From contig NZ_CP028901.1 in the NCBI RefSeq assembly GCF_003058465.1, positions 434,001-498,000 of the forward strand: 64,000 nt of DNA, given 5' to 3'. The position numbers and the translations under genes are program-made. This DNA comes from Orrella marina. GTDB lineage: Bacteria; Pseudomonadota; Gammaproteobacteria; Burkholderiales; Burkholderiaceae_B. Positions 243 through 5,772 of this stretch are shown one piece after another. The stretch's first letter is position 1; each line of letters opens with the position of its first letter. The notes beneath the pieces were generated by a model. That model made no database searches, was not told where the DNA came from, and worked only from the letters and a program-made list of their open reading frames with translations.

Positions 243-273
243 CGGAAAGATTTTTTGTGTTAGATTCGTTGTC

Positions 274-360
274 ATGAAAAACGCAGCCACATTCTTCTGG
301 TTTTACTTTTATGGCTTTCCTACCAAACTGGCGGAAGGACGGATGCGTAGTGCCCAATGA
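274..360 (+). CDS. Aromatic-rich leader peptide of the aroG attenuator
   Basis: A 28-codon ORF starting with ATG (MKNAATFFWFYFYGFPTK...) carries eight aromatic residues in a nine-residue run, FFWFYFYGF, at codons 7-15 (292-318). All three aromatic amino acids are included. It ends 13 bases before a strong intrinsic terminator and lies about 200 bases upstream of aroG, which makes the first enzyme of aromatic amino acid synthesis. This is the layout of leader peptides such as those of pheA and trpE: when charged tRNA-Phe, -Tyr or -Trp is scarce, the ribosome stalls on the aromatic codons. The codon run, terminator and competing pairing are all visible; regulation itself is inferred. Confidence 0.8.
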   Translation: MKNAATFFWFYFYGFPTKLAEGRMRSAQ

Positions 361-407
361 AACAAGAGAATCCAAAAACCGCCAGCCTGAGCTGGCGGTT
401 TTTTTTT
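328..407 (+). promoter_or_regulatory. Attenuator: antiterminator and terminator alternatives before aroG
   Basis: The segment CTGGCGG at 328-334, inside the leader ORF, has the same sequence as the 3' arm of the downstream terminator (392-398). It can therefore pair with the terminator's 5' arm CCGCCAG (379-385). A ribosome stalled on the aromatic codons (292-318) would leave 328-334 free, so the antiterminator could form. A ribosome at the leader stop (358-360) would cover the region and let the terminator fold. Confidence 0.75.
374..407 (+). terminator. Intrinsic terminator of the aroG attenuator
   Basis: The arms AAAAACCGCCAGC (374-386) and GCTGGCGGTTTTT (391-403) are perfect complements around a CTGA loop, and nine T residues follow (399-407). 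It sits about 150 bases before aroG and after a leader peptide. It is therefore an upstream control terminator rather than the end of a gene; tldD ends 300 bases earlier. Confidence 0.9.
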
Positions 408-558
408 AACCTGCTGCAACTGAAGTCACTGTGTTGCGACCGAGTTGCAAGTTTCCCGACACCATCTTCCTGTGAACATCAGACCGATCGAACAGGCCCT
501 GTTTTCAGTATCACAATGAATCGAACGATCCCAGACTGACTTGACCGAGGAGTAAGAA

Positions 559-1632
559 GTGCCACACAACACCGATGACATTCGTATTCGAGAAATCAAA
601 GAGCTTTCGCCTCCGGCGCATGCGATGCGCGAGTTCCCCTGCACCGAGTTCGTGAGCGAGCTGGTTCACGATGCCCGCGGGGCCCTGCATCGCATCCTGC
701 ACGGCATGGATGACCGGGTTGCAGTCGTGATCGGCCCATGTTCGATCCACGATCCCGAGGCCGCACTGGAGTACGCCGACAAGCTCAAGGTTGTGCGCGA
801 AAGACTCAAGGACGACCTCGAGATCATCATGCGGGTGTACTTCGAGAAGCCTCGTACGACGGTTGGATGGAAGGGCCTGATCAACGATCCCGATCTGGAT
901 GGTAGTTTCCAGATCAACAAAGGTCTGCGTCTGGCCCGCCAGTTGCTGCTGGAGATCAACGCGAAAGGCCTGCCGGCTGGATGCGAGTTCCTGGACATGA
1001 TCACCCCTCAGTACATTGCGGATCTGGTGTCATGGGGCGCTATTGGTGCCCGAACGACAGAAAGTCAGGTGCATCGCGAGCTGGCCTCGGGGCTGTCCTG
1101 CCCGGTGGGCTTCAAGAACGGTACGGACGGTAGCGTACGCATCGCAGTCGATGCCATCAAGGCGGCTTCGCAACCGCATCACTTTCTCTCGGTCACCAAG
1201 GGTGGGCACTCTGCCATCGTATCGACTGGCGGCAACGAAGATTGTCATGCCATCCTGCGTGGTGGCAAGGCACCGAACTACGATGCCGCCAGTGTTCAGG
1301 CGGCCTGCGAGGATCTGGCCAAAGCCGGACTGGCTCAGCGTCTGATGATTGACGCCAGCCACGCCAACAGCAGCAAGAAGCCCGAGAATCAACCAGCTGT
1401 CTGCCAGGACATCGGTCAGCAGATCGCTGCAGGCGATACGCGTATCGTTGGTGTAATGGTGGAAAGCCACCTTGTTGCCGGTCGTCAGGACCTGGTGACG
1501 GGGCAGCCACTGACTTACGGCCAGAGCATCACCGACGGCTGCATCGACTGGGAAGCCTCCGAGGCGGTGCTGGATAATCTTGCCCAGGCCGTACGCGAGC
1601 GCAGACGCGTTGTCGCCACATCCGGAAAGTGA
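559..1632 (+). CDS. aroG: 3-deoxy-7-phosphoheptulonate synthase (class I DAHP synthase)
   Basis: Condenses phosphoenolpyruvate and erythrose 4-phosphate to DAHP, the first step of the shikimate pathway, in the cytoplasm. The 357-residue protein has the class I AroF/G/H length. It shows GPCSIHD with the metal-ligand cysteine at residue 61, KPRTTVGWKG near 97-106 (phosphoenolpyruvate binding), and DASHANSSKKP near 265. The start is GTG with GAGGAG upstream at 547-552. The gene is preceded by the aromatic leader-peptide attenuator, so transcription is probably limited by aromatic amino acid supply, besides the feedback inhibition known for this family. The next gene starts 7 bases after its stop and is probably co-transcribed. 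Which amino acid inhibits the enzyme cannot be told from the sequence. Confidence 0.95.
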   Translation: MPHNTDDIRIREIKELSPPAHAMREFPCTEFVSELVHDARGALHRILHGMDDRVAVVIGPCSIHDPEAALEYADKLKVVRERLKDDLEIIMRVYFEKPRTTVGWKGLINDPDLDGSFQINKGLRLARQLLLEINAKGLPAGCEFLDMITPQYIADLVSWGAIGARTTESQVHRELASGLSCPVGFKNGTDGSVRIAVDAIKAASQPHHFLSVTKGGHSAIVSTGGNEDCHAILRGGKAPNYDAASVQAACEDLAKAGLAQRLMIDASHANSSKKPENQPAVCQDIGQQIAAGDTRIVGVMVESHLVAGRQDLVTGQPLTYGQSITDGCIDWEASEAVLDNLAQAVRERRRVVATSGK

Positions 1633-1639
1633 GGTCGCA

Positions 1640-3064
1640 ATGAGTCAGGTATCCGTTCATGAGGCCAGTGTCTTGCGCAAGCCCTTGCCAGAGGCTCTGG
1701 TCGAACAGTTGCGCAGTCACTTCGGGGACCGGTTTTCGACGGCGCAGGCGGTGCGTGAGCATCACGGGCGTGATGAATCACCCTTTCCCGAGATGCTGCC
1801 AGACGCAGTCGTTTTTGCCACCTCCACCGATGATGTGGTGCGTGTGGTCAAGGCATGCGATGCCTTCGAAGTGCCGCTGATCCCCTACGGGGCGGGCTCG
1901 TCCCTGGAGGGGCACACGCTGGCTTTGCACGGTGGTATTTCACTTGATGTCAGTGGTATGAACCGGATCCTGTCACTCAATACAGAAGATCTGACTGTGA
2001 CTGTTGAACCGGGAATGACCCGCAAGCAGCTGAATGAGCAACTGCGGGACACGGGGTTGTTTTTTCCGATCGACCCAGGGGCAGACGCATCGCTCGGTGG
2101 CATGGCGAGTACCCGCGCATCCGGCACCAATGCCGTGCGTTATGGCACCATGCGCGAGAACGTTCTGAGTCTCGAAGTTGTGACCGCACAAGGCAAGGTG
2201 GTACGCACTGCCAGGCGGGCGCGCAAGTCTTCGGCCGGATATGATCTGACTCGCATCTTTGTCGGTAGCGAAGGAACGCTTGGCGTCATCACGCAGGTGA
2301 CAGTGCGGCTTTACCCGCAACCCGAGGCCATCAGTGCCGCGGTATGTCAGTTTCCAACCGTGCACGATGCGGTTGCATGCGTCATTCAGACCATACAGCT
2401 TGGTGTGCCAGTGGCACGGGTGGAGCTGATGGATGCTGCTGCTGTGAAAGCCTGCAATCTCTACAGCAAGCTTGATCTCAGAGAAACACCACTATTGCTG
2501 TTTGAGTTCCACGGGACAGAGGCAGGCGTCAAGGAGCAGGCGCAGACTGTTCAGGAAATCGCACGCGATCACAACGGACTGGATTTCGAATGGGCTGACC
2601 GGCCAGAAGACCGGACCCGACTGTGGACCGCCCGGCATAACGCGTATTTTGCGGGCTTGCAACTCAAACCGGGTTGCAGGGCGAGCACCACGGATGTGTG
2701 TGTGCCGATTTCCAGACTGGCTGACTGCCTGGACCAGACCACGGCATTACTGGAGAGCGCGCCGTTTCCAACCACGATTGTCGGGCACGTTGGTGATGGA
2801 AACTTCCACGTGCTGATGCTGCTCGACCCCGATGATGCGGCGCAATGGGAAGCGTCTGAAACGATCAACGAAAGAATCGTTTCGATTGCCCTGGACGCGG
2901 ACGGCACCTGCACGGGAGAGCATGGCATTGGTCTGCATAAACTCGGTTTCATGCGAGAGGAGCACGGCCATGATGCGCTCGAGTTGATGTGGGCCCTCAA
3001 GCGAGCGTATGACCCCAAGAATATTCTTAATCCAGGCAAGGTTTTGCCGCCGGATTTACCCTAG
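1640..3064 (+). CDS. FAD-linked D-lactate dehydrogenase-type oxidoreductase
   Basis: 474 residues from ATG 1640, preceded by GAGG; a longer in-frame start at 1580 would overlap aroG and is unlikely. The N-terminal half is a PCMH-type FAD-binding domain with the pyrophosphate-binding stretch PYGAGSSLEGHT near residue 93. The C-terminal half is a FAD-oxidase C domain with GHVGDGNFHV and GEHGIGLHKL. This architecture is shared by cytochrome-linked D-lactate dehydrogenases and D-2-hydroxyglutarate or glycolate dehydrogenases. Closeness to glcDEF suggests 2-hydroxyacid oxidation feeding the respiratory chain. The substrate is inferred, with D-lactate as the best guess. Confidence 0.85.
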   Translation: MSQVSVHEASVLRKPLPEALVEQLRSHFGDRFSTAQAVREHHGRDESPFPEMLPDAVVFATSTDDVVRVVKACDAFEVPLIPYGAGSSLEGHTLALHGGISLDVSGMNRILSLNTEDLTVTVEPGMTRKQLNEQLRDTGLFFPIDPGADASLGGMASTRASGTNAVRYGTMRENVLSLEVVTAQGKVVRTARRARKSSAGYDLTRIFVGSEGTLGVITQVTVRLYPQPEAISAAVCQFPTVHDAVACVIQTIQLGVPVARVELMDAAAVKACNLYSKLDLRETPLLLFEFHGTEAGVKEQAQTVQEIARDHNGLDFEWADRPEDRTRLWTARHNAYFAGLQLKPGCRASTTDVCVPISRLADCLDQTTALLESAPFPTTIVGHVGDGNFHVLMLLDPDDAAQWEASETINERIVSIALDADGTCTGEHGIGLHKLGFMREEHGHDALELMWALKRAYDPKNILNPGKVLPPDLP

Positions 3065-3165
3065 GTTGGACCGATATATGGGGTTTATCCTGTTCGCGAG
3101 AAGCTCTCTTACGGGGTATGGTTCAGAATGGAATTGTTCCACAGTAATTTTTAGTGTGCGGCGCG

Positions 3166-4662
3166 ATGAATCTGAACGTTGAAGACAGACCAGCCGACTT
3201 GGTGATTCCTGATCTGCAGGAAATTCTCCATGCCCTGAGGGCGGTGGTGCCCGAGCATTGCATTCTGTTTCGTGCCGAGCAGAAAAAGCCTTACGAGTGT
3301 GACGGACTGTCGCTCTATCGGCAGATTCCGATGGTTGTGGTCTTGCCGGAAACAGAAGAACAGGTGCGCGGTGTGCTGCGAGCCTGCCGTCGTCTGAATG
3401 TCCCGGTCGTTACACGAGGGGCGGGTACCGGTCTGTCCGGAGGCGCCATGCCGCACGCGCAAGGGGTGCTGCTGGGTATGGCCAAATTCAACCGGATCAA
3501 GCTGATTGATCCGGAGTCCGCCATCGCGGTGGTCGAGCCGGGGGTTCGCAACCTTGCTGTGTCACAGGCTGCCAGTCAGCACGGCCTGTACTACGCGCCT
3601 GATCCTTCGAGCCAGATTGCCTGCACGATCGGGGGTAACGTCGCAGAGAACTCCGGAGGGGTGCATTGTCTGAAGTATGGCCTGACCCTGCACAATGTGA
3701 TGCAAGTCAGGATGATCACCCTTGACGGCGAGGTTCTGGTGCTCGGAGGCGAGGCCCCCGATGCCGCCGGGCCTGATCTGCTGTCGGTTGCAATCGGATC
3801 CGAAGGAATGCTCGGGGTGGTTACTGAAGTCGTGCTGCGACTTTTGCCAACGCCTGGTCTGGCAAAGGTCATCATGGCCAGTTTTGAGGATGTGGAGGCT
3901 GCAGGTGATGCGGTGGCAGCCGTAATTGCCGCAGGCATCATTCCAGCGGGACTTGAAATGATGGATCAGCGTGCAACCGAGATGGTTGAGCCGTTCGTTC
4001 AGGCCGGATATGACTTGAACGCCAAGGCCATCCTGTTGTGTGAATCGGATGGGACCGAGCTTGAAGTGGAGCAGGAAATTGCCCGTATGCAGCAGGTGCT
4101 TTCTGATGCCGGGGCGACCCGGCTGCAAGTGTCTCAAAACGAAGCCGAACGTGTCAGATTCTGGGCAGGGCGCAAGAACGCGTTTCCGGCAGCAGGTCGT
4201 GTGTCGCCGGACTACTACTGCATGGATGGCACGATTCCCAGAAGCCAGCTCGCGCGGGTCCTGCGAGAGATCGAGTCAATGGAACAAGCCTACGGGCTGC
4301 GGTGTGCCAACGTCTTTCATGCAGGTGACGGTAATCTGCACCCCTTGATCCTGTTTGACTCCAATGATTCCGATGAGGTGTATCGGGCCGATCTCTTTGG
4401 CGCGGCCATTCTTGAGTTGTGTGTGCAGGTTGGCGGAACCATTACTGGTGAGCACGGTGTTGGCATGGAAAAAATCAACCAGATGTGTGTGCAGTTCCAG
4501 AGAGAGGAGCTTGATGCGTTTCTGAGCGTCAAGCGATCCTTCGACCCGGATGGTCTGCTCAATCCGGACAAGGTGATTCCCACACTGGCACGGTGTGCCG
4601 AGTACGGCAAGATGCACGTCCATGGTGGCAAACTACCCTTTGCCGATCTGCCGAGGTTCTAG
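3166..4662 (+). CDS. glcD: Glycolate oxidase FAD subunit GlcD
   Basis: 498 residues from ATG 3166, close to the length of E. coli GlcD; a GTG at 3154 would add four residues. The PCMH FAD domain shows TRGAGTGLSGGA near 85-96, and the FAD-oxidase C domain shows HAGDGNLHPLI and GEHGVGMEKI. Together with GlcE and GlcF it oxidises glycolate to glyoxylate at the membrane and passes electrons to the quinone pool. It forms a tight operon with glcE (3-base gap) and glcF (9-base gap). A 100-base gap separates it from the upstream flavoprotein gene, which is about 28% identical in layout, so the pair may be old duplicates. The percentage is a visual impression, not an alignment. Confidence 0.93.
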   Translation: MNLNVEDRPADLVIPDLQEILHALRAVVPEHCILFRAEQKKPYECDGLSLYRQIPMVVVLPETEEQVRGVLRACRRLNVPVVTRGAGTGLSGGAMPHAQGVLLGMAKFNRIKLIDPESAIAVVEPGVRNLAVSQAASQHGLYYAPDPSSQIACTIGGNVAENSGGVHCLKYGLTLHNVMQVRMITLDGEVLVLGGEAPDAAGPDLLSVAIGSEGMLGVVTEVVLRLLPTPGLAKVIMASFEDVEAAGDAVAAVIAAGIIPAGLEMMDQRATEMVEPFVQAGYDLNAKAILLCESDGTELEVEQEIARMQQVLSDAGATRLQVSQNEAERVRFWAGRKNAFPAAGRVSPDYYCMDGTIPRSQLARVLREIESMEQAYGLRCANVFHAGDGNLHPLILFDSNDSDEVYRADLFGAAILELCVQVGGTITGEHGVGMEKINQMCVQFQREELDAFLSVKRSFDPDGLLNPDKVIPTLARCAEYGKMHVHGGKLPFADLPRF

Positions 4663-4665
4663 CAC

Positions 4666-5772
4666 ATGGACTATCGGCTTACAGAAATGTCAGAGCAGGT
4701 GACGACTGCGCGCGCCAGTTACCGTCCCATCGAGATCGTCGGGGGGGCGACCAAGCGGTTTTACGGCAACCCGATGCAGGCCTCTGACAACAATGCCTTC
4801 AAGTTGCAGATGGGTGGTCTGGATGGCGTGATCCGGTACGAGCCCAGTGAGCTCGTCTTGACCGCATGGGCAGGGACCCGTCTGCAAGAGATCAGTCAGC
4901 TATTACATGAGCGCAATCAGATGCTGGCGTTTGACCCGCCTGGGTTTGGGCCGGATTCCACGCTAGGTGGCGTGGTCGCTGCCGGACTGTCTGGTCCGTC
5001 GAGCTTTGGCTACGGTCCTTTGCGACATTACGTGCTCGGCATCCGCTTGCTTGATGCCCAGGGGAGAATCCTCCGCTTCGGGGGTGAGGTCATGAAAAAC
5101 GTCGCAGGCTACGACGTATCCCGACTGCTGGCTGGCTCCATGGGGATGTTCGGAGCGATTGTAGAGGTCTCGATCAAAGTGCTGCCACGACCAGAACACG
5201 ATATCAGTTGTGTGCTGGAACTGTCTGAAGCTGCTGCGCTGGCGGTATGTCGATCCTTTCGGGCCAGTACCTGGCCAGTCAAGGCCGCCGCCTGGTTACC
5301 CGGCGACGCAGGTGTTGGTGCGGGCACGCTTTGCGTCAGGCTGGCAGGGGCACAGGCGGCTGTGGAGCATGCACGCCAGTCCCTGGGTGGTCAGGTGCTC
5401 GACCAGCAAGAGGCCAGTGCCTGGTGGTCAGCCTTGCGCGAGCAGACTCATTCGTTTTTTACACGGCGCCCGCTCTGGCGGCTGGCGGTACGTTCCGGCA
5501 CACCCGCCCTTGATCTGGGTCCGTGCGCGTTTGATCTGGCGGGCGAGGTGCGATGGCTGGTGCCGGATAACGATGCAACCACGATCCGCTCAGTGGCGTC
5601 GAAGGCGGGTGGCCATGCGACACTGTTTCGGCACGATCATACAACCCGGATCCCTGCAGACGGAGTGTTTCAGCCTCTGGCGCCCACTATGCACGCCGTG
5701 GTACGCCGCCTCAAGGGGGAGTTCGATCCAAAAGGCGTCTTTAACCCGGGTCGTCTGGTCCTGGATCTGTAG
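4666..5772 (+). CDS. glcE: Glycolate oxidase FAD-binding subunit GlcE
   Basis: 368 residues, the usual GlcE length. It carries a shortened PCMH FAD-binding domain (FDPPGFGPDSTLGGVVAAGL near 86-105, then GGEVMKNVAGYDVSRL near 139-154), and its tail FDPKGVFNPGRLV matches the C-terminus of the GlcD/E family. It starts 3 bases after glcD; an internal ATG at 4687 is an alternative. It is the second flavin subunit of the glycolate oxidase complex and is not active alone in E. coli. Confidence 0.93.
   Translation: MDYRLTEMSEQVTTARASYRPIEIVGGATKRFYGNPMQASDNNAFKLQMGGLDGVIRYEPSELVLTAWAGTRLQEISQLLHERNQMLAFDPPGFGPDSTLGGVVAAGLSGPSSFGYGPLRHYVLGIRLLDAQGRILRFGGEVMKNVAGYDVSRLLAGSMGMFGAIVEVSIKVLPRPEHDISCVLELSEAAALAVCRSFRASTWPVKAAAWLPGDAGVGAGTLCVRLAGAQAAVEHARQSLGGQVLDQQEASAWWSALREQTHSFFTRRPLWRLAVRSGTPALDLGPCAFDLAGEVRWLVPDNDATTIRSVASKAGGHATLFRHDHTTRIPADGVFQPLAPTMHAVVRRLKGEFDPKGVFNPGRLVLDL

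Follow-up and report, generated by a model that had tools for sequence, protein, structure and literature searches.

A probable ribosome-mediated transcription attenuator with an aromatic leader peptide upstream of aroG in Orrella marina and other Burkholderiales

In the 64,000 nt of Orrella marina DNA analysed here (the window, meaning this whole stretch) a short open reading frame rich in codons for aromatic amino acids precedes aroG, the gene predicted to encode a DAHP synthase. This arrangement raises the question of whether aroG is controlled by transcription attenuation and, if so, which amino acids the leader senses. Judging from the sequence features and their conservation, the region very probably acts as a ribosome-mediated transcription attenuator of aroG, in which stalling of the ribosome on the leader would free an antiterminator. 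The features discussed in the following are listed in Table 1.

Table 1. Features predicted in the aroG region of the window
Feature	Position	Strand	Basis and remarks
Extended -10-like element TGTTAGATT	258..266	+	TGn at 258-260, hexamer at 261-266; 7 nt 5' of the leader ATG
Leader peptide ORF	274..360	+	28 codons, ATG start, stop codon 358-360; lacks a Shine-Dalgarno sequence
Region 1:2 hairpin	315..338	+	315-320 with 333-338, 323-325 with 329-331
Region 2, outer antiterminator arm CTGGCGG	328..334	+	inside the ORF; pairs with 379-385
Inner antiterminator arm GGAT	341..344	+	pairs with 370-373; fold of 325-390
Inner antiterminator arm ATCC	370..373	+	directly before the terminator; fold of 325-390
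Region 3, terminator 5' arm	374..386	+	sequence, hairpin scan, fold; 379-385 common to the antiterminator
Region 4, terminator 3' arm and T-run	391..407	+	sequence, hairpin scan, fold
Shine-Dalgarno-like AGGAG before aroG	548..552	+	sequence
aroG, class I DAHP synthase	559..1632	+	profile matches, Pfam PF00793; GTG start
FAD-linked oxidase, glcD-like	1640..3064	+	PF01565 and PF02913; 7 nt after aroG

aroG and its genomic context

The assignment of the aroG product to the class I DAHP synthases is based on the profiles NF006723 (593.6 bits, cut-off 568) and TIGR00034 (547.7 bits, cut-off 173.2). Its best matches among solved structures are the Phe-regulated or Phe-sensitive DAHP synthases 1gg1 and 5cks, which we take to be the E. 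coli enzymes. One class I DAHP synthase match was detected in the O. marina genome, and a search for class II enzymes, which gave matches in two of 14 control genomes, yielded none in this genome. Since aroG is the only DAHP synthase gene found, the switch would set the entry into the whole aromatic pathway.

The FAD-linked oxidase gene is probably under the control of the same attenuator, as it lies only 7 nt from aroG on the same strand. An oxidase match on the same strand also follows aroG in 60 of 80 named loci. In 54 of these the identity is 64-82% and the estimated gap to aroG reaches up to about 170 nt, except for L114 (about 755 nt), while the six matches at 28-32% identity probably represent another oxidase. 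Furthermore, glcD-like and glcE-like genes were detected behind the oxidase gene on the same strand (window 3154-5772), so that the aroG transcript could extend into the glycolate oxidase genes.

The leader ORF, the terminator and the competing RNA arms

The leader ORF encodes the peptide MKNAATFFWFYFYGFPTKLAEGRMRSAQ. Sequence and translation bear out the 28-codon leader of the original prediction with FFWFYFYGF at codons 7-15, where eight of nine codons are aromatic. Among the ORFs of 8-60 codons it is the only one in the window with at least seven aromatic codons in ten. When the complete window was subjected to 150 dinucleotide shuffles, three ORFs with at least seven aromatic codons in ten arose, none of them followed by a terminator-like hairpin within 80 nt, and no ORF reached eight in ten; a chance ORF is ruled out by these shuffles.

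An intrinsic terminator hairpin of 13 pairs with a 4-nt loop (374-403) starts 13 nt past the leader stop codon and is joined by a plus-strand T-run (399-407). The hairpin scan lists it on the minus strand only, because the plus-strand scan consumes the T-run in the stem. The segment 379-385 of the 5' arm reads CCGCCAG. A letter-by-letter check confirmed that region 2 can pair with this segment and the segment in turn with 392-398, as expected from the proposed competition between the CTGGCGG motif of the leader and the terminator 3' arm. The motif is indeed repeated in the 3' arm, but the repeat proper comprises 392-398, while the previously indicated 391-398 reads GCTGGCGG.

Inside the outer helix lies a second, inner antiterminator helix, which is absent from the original prediction. 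In addition, once a ribosome has moved on, the 1:2 hairpin could sequester the antiterminator arm behind it. The region thus combines what characterises an attenuator: an ORF with an aromatic run, an intrinsic terminator between this ORF and aroG, and an antiterminator that is mutually exclusive with the terminator and involves a leader segment which a ribosome can cover.

Occurrence in other genomes

Homologues of aroG were sought in 61 genomes and matched in 56. From the 68 match rows 65 upstream regions were read, as a second aroG copy of G057 was omitted and three pieces of G029 were treated as one locus. A leader ORF with at least five aromatic codons in ten together with a terminator was detected in 38 of the 65 regions, second copies included. 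The script picks the closest ATG with which the aromatic block is still complete, and the starts assigned to L002 and L034 are probably downstream of the true ones. The other 27 regions belong to second copies of aroG, to aroG of distant types or, in four cases (L016, L017, L028, L035), to single-copy loci from the same family.

A similar script detected leader and terminator in 56 of the 80 named loci, a set which overlaps the 61 genomes and is not independent of them. The carriers include Achromobacter, Bordetella, Pusillimonas, Advenella, Pigmentiphaga, Duganella, Noviherbaspirillum and Massilia. Three of the 24 loci without a leader according to the script show one by eye (L164 and L167 clearly, L109 weakly).

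A group of loci without a leader (L111, L113, L118, L120-L122, L133, L139, L141, L143-L150) belongs to Zwartia, Jezberella, a Sheuella sp. and uncultured relatives. Here aroG is located within roughly 170 nt downstream of a gene whose protein ends with LTVGGTA, as does the protein of the upstream gene in the window. This gene is presumably TldD-like.

A covariance model, R1, was derived from the 38 leaders; the terminator is the sole structure annotated in it. The window element is its only full-length match in the O. marina genome (114.2 bits), the eight others at E<=1 being partial. A search of 300 genomes of the order gave matches at E<=0.001 in 85 genomes, from 53 of 135 genera. According to a hand count the match is full-length in 77 of them (10 training genomes and 67 others) and only partial in eight more. 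aroG is located directly downstream of 75 of the 77 full-length matches, as assigned by tblastn for 49 (30 + 19) and by coordinates for 26. An aroG match at E<=1e-90 is present in 224 of the 300 genomes, about a third of which show the element at this cut-off. Partial matches occupy 16 rows, and none of the nine places inspected has aroG downstream.

The two exceptional full-length matches (L209 in G151, L210 in G224) have an aromatic leader with YFYWYRSS and a GC-rich terminator that do not precede aroG. They are followed by a frame of about 200 aa without a Pfam match and then by a DUF4870-like frame, as seen in the G151 proteins, the only ones scanned.

In the class-wide search 12 of 274 genomes matched R1 at E<=0.001, three of which belong to this order (O. 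marina, G085, G128). Among the nine matches outside the order only those of G342 and G494 (L184 and L183, one family of another order) precede aroG. The flanks examined for the remaining seven contain no aroG; five of these matches are full-length at 30-39 bits and two are partial.

Co-variation of the competing arms

The arms were compared by a swap test, in which the leader arm of one genome is paired with the terminator-side arm of another (38 loci, 5000 permutations). For the whole antiterminator the mean energy is -22.07 kcal/mol with own arms versus -19.46 kcal/mol with swapped arms. The corresponding values are -6.72 versus -5.04 kcal/mol for the inner helix alone and -10.85 versus -9.36 kcal/mol for the 1:2 hairpin (315-325 with 329-338), and in all three cases none of the 5000 permutations was as good. 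After thinning to 23 dissimilar sequences 0, 3 and 2 of 5000 permutations were as good for antiterminator, inner helix and 1:2 hairpin, respectively. The own partner is the single best one in only 3, 3 and 4 of the 38 rows, because relatives share arms.

The inner helix is re-formed with other letters in relatives (GGGAA/TTCCC, TCGGTT/AACCGA, ATTCG/CGAAT). In the outer antiterminator helix 94.7% of the cells are paired versus 92.6% in shuffles (0 of 500 as high), while its best slid version pairs 54.7%. Three of its pairs show double changes, a number reached by 15 of 500 shuffles. For the terminator itself two of five co-variation measures are not above the shuffles (181 and 248 of 500 as high).

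Conservation of the aromatic codons and of the pairing between leader and terminator had been named as the test of the proposal, and both are kept in the family of O. marina and in many others of the order. The attenuation design before aroG is consequently supported by the 38 of 65 upstream regions, the R1 survey and the co-varying competing arms. An ordinary gene terminator was rejected in view of the arm co-variation and the placement of the R1 matches before aroG.

The start of the leader transcript

The leader ORF is probably leaderless, with the mRNA 5' end at its own AUG, since an extended -10 element is located 6-9 nt before the leader ATG. This element is new relative to the original prediction. 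The pattern TGnTAnnnT, ending at a distance of 6-9 nt from the ATG, was observed for 29 of the 38 leaders, compared with two of 777 other ATGs in the 65 upstream regions. When a spacing of 5-9 nt is allowed, it also precedes the leader ATG in 18 of 41 further loci, namely in f49 (8/8), f22 (4/4), f43 (4/5), f39 (1/1) and f1 (1/1), while it was detected in none of the 22 further loci of f3, f7, f9, f10, f31 and f63. Kinship of the loci inflates the counts of 29 and 18, but the element is nonetheless present in the five families f1, f22, f39, f43 and f49.

No Shine-Dalgarno match longer than 4 nt precedes the leader ATG in any of the 38 loci. Matches of 4 nt occur in ten of them (26%, versus 12% of random positions), and all ten fall within the -10 hexamer itself.

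Proposed mechanism and folding

RNA polymerase would initiate at the leader AUG or immediately beside it, and translation would begin on this 5'-terminal AUG. When charged Phe- and Tyr-tRNA (in this lineage also Trp-tRNA) are scarce, the ribosome is expected to stall at about codons 7-13. Region 2 would then remain free to pair with region 3, aided by the inner helix, and the terminator would not form in time, which would allow transcription of aroG. With an ample supply of charged tRNA, the ribosome would cross region 2 up to the stop codon and cover the inner helix; the 1:2 hairpin may close behind it and the terminator would end transcription. Timing would be decisive, the passing ribosome occupying region 2 while region 3 is being made.

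The folding energies are low compared to shuffled sequences (z-scores of -2.67 for 264-412 and -3.66 for 345-412). The RNA present before the terminator 3' arm is made (325-390) folds into the antiterminator, with 328-334/379-385 enclosing 341-344/370-373. With the polymerase at 390 and a ribosome masking 283-312, 292-321 or 295-324 (A site at codon 9, 12 or 13) the calculated probability of the outer antiterminator is 0.99-1.0, while it drops to 0 with a mask at 301-330 (A site at codon 15).

At the same polymerase position the outer antiterminator still reaches 0.99 without a ribosome and 0.76 with a ribosome on the stop codon, so termination after full translation is not given by the energy model alone. 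The 1:2 hairpin (-7.8 kcal/mol alone) is weaker than the antiterminator and does not outcompete it in the energy model of the window, though it is present when the full-length RNA is folded with the stop codon occupied by a ribosome. The terminator wins in the full-length folds, both without a ribosome and with a ribosome on the stop codon, and in 325-412 alone, for which reason the switch must be kinetic. Folding both alternatives, as had been suggested, hence reproduced the antiterminator in 325-390 and the terminator at full length, but not termination after full translation from energies alone.

Amino acids sensed by the leader

The codon tally covers whole peptides from 133 loci of overlapping sets, corresponding to 110 distinct peptides; one peptide is included twice with different starts (L002, L103), whereas L077, L184, L199 and 26 loci known by coordinates only are omitted. 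Phe occurs in 110 of the distinct peptides, Tyr in 105, Trp in 43 and all three in 41, with totals of 551 Phe, 216 Tyr and 45 Trp codons. Phe is thus the main residue and Tyr the second, while Trp is mostly represented by a single codon that recurs in several families. The combination of all three aromatic residues in one leader is a repeated pattern and not peculiar to the O. marina genome. Given that Phe and Tyr are near universal and Trp is found in only 43 of 110 peptides, it appears less certain that the leader senses all three amino acids than that it senses aromatic shortage.

A serious contender, against which we lean slightly, is an attenuator in which only Phe (perhaps with Tyr) matters and the Trp codon is incidental. 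Such an element would be close to the AroR leader of Corynebacterium glutamicum as reported, where the aroF operon is described to respond when Phe is limiting, but not to the availability of Tyr (PMC11802643). The codon counts fit this assumption, as does the resemblance of the enzyme to Phe-regulated DAHP synthases. However, the Trp codon recurs in or beside the aromatic block in the genus Orrella and L015 (f1) as well as in f3, f9, f11, f12, f22, f31, f39 and f49, and even in a leader outside the order (f63). Moreover, with aroG as the only DAHP synthase gene found in the genome, the sensing of every end product would make sense.

We tentatively consider, as possible rather than probable, that one leaderless leader serves as a joint gauge, so that the only DAHP synthase found would be released whenever the ribosome stalls at a codon for Phe, Tyr or Trp. 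E. coli controls the same step with three isozymes and two repressors. If the assumption of a joint gauge is true, one cis element would do the job of these isozymes and repressors, and the 5'-terminal AUG would allow the first ribosome to load once the RNA leaves the polymerase, coupling both from codon one. The FAD-linked oxidase would come under the same control.

Other functions of the leader region

It seems unlikely, albeit conceivable, that the leader transcript has a second role in trans after termination, either as a small RNA itself or via the released peptide, similar to rnTrpL/peTrpL of Sinorhizobium. rnTrpL is likewise described as an attenuator RNA starting with the AUG of its leader (PMC7298713), but a function in trans would supplement attenuation and not replace it.

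Least of all do we expect the ORF to encode a functional small hydrophobic protein with its own ordinary terminator and aroG to be transcribed from a separate promoter: the peptide is conserved and hydrophobic and the 151 nt between T-run and aroG (408-558) offer space for a promoter, but the ORF shows nucleotide co-variation with the terminator side, for which a protein function gives no reason, the remainder of the leader is far more variable (mean column identity 49%), the full-length R1 matches lie almost always directly before aroG (75 of 77), and a consensus scan gave no plus-strand sigma-70 site in 1-1700, a result that says little since the -10 element of the leader was missed as well.

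Relation to known attenuators and significance

Like the Rfam family Phe_leader (RF01859), the window element combines a Phe-rich leader peptide with a terminator. Known Phe_leader members precede pheA and pheST-type genes. The Rfam scan of the window element gave sub-threshold matches only, and membership in Phe_leader was rejected (27.5 bits, cut-off 55).

Among the closest described systems is AroR of C. glutamicum, an aromatic leader peptide (Phe-Tyr-Phe) which precedes the DAHP synthase gene aroF and acts by ribosome-stalling attenuation (PMC4046766, PMC11802643). It differs from the window element in belonging to another phylum, in having Phe-Tyr-Phe instead of eight aromatic codons in nine, with no Trp mentioned in the sections consulted, and in its reported response to Phe but not to Tyr. 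In Acholeplasma the motif uORFC-13-1 upstream of aroF is a predicted attenuator, and a similar control has been hypothesised for E. coli aroF (PMC8632094). This motif likewise consists of a uORF with one or more Phe codons and a terminator before a DAHP synthase gene, but it comprises 24 sequences from Acholeplasma and environmental DNA, possesses an RBS and belongs to another phylum.

The trpL/rnTrpL attenuator RNA of Sinorhizobium meliloti also starts at the leader AUG but represents a Trp leader before trpE(G) (PMC7298713). Leaderless leader peptides of attenuators are furthermore described for leuL, trpL, ilvL and thrL of Streptomyces lividans, though none of the eight leaders in the portion of PMC8079986 consulted is specific for Phe or Tyr or precedes a DAHP synthase gene. 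According to PMC5688073 (Table S3), short transcripts arise from 82 5'UTRs of B. cenocepacia through either processing or attenuation. The main text of a survey of premature terminators in Genome Biology (PMC2965389) does not mention aroG, DAHP, aromatic or phenylalanine in the parts available.

No published aroG leader attenuator in Burkholderiales was found in the literature searched. The novelty suggested for the leader originally holds insofar as no description was found for this order, but leaders of DAHP synthase genes are known or predicted in Corynebacterium and Acholeplasma and hypothesised for E. coli aroF. The element is very probably a widely conserved attenuator of a known kind, which is probably undescribed in this order.

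Two twists, the probably leaderless start and the mixed aromatic code, make the aroG leader a good test case. It would give a large bacterial order a regulator acting where the aromatic pathway begins. The leaders also form a natural peptide series with which the weighing of three amino acids by a single leader could be studied, as could attenuation on a leaderless mRNA.
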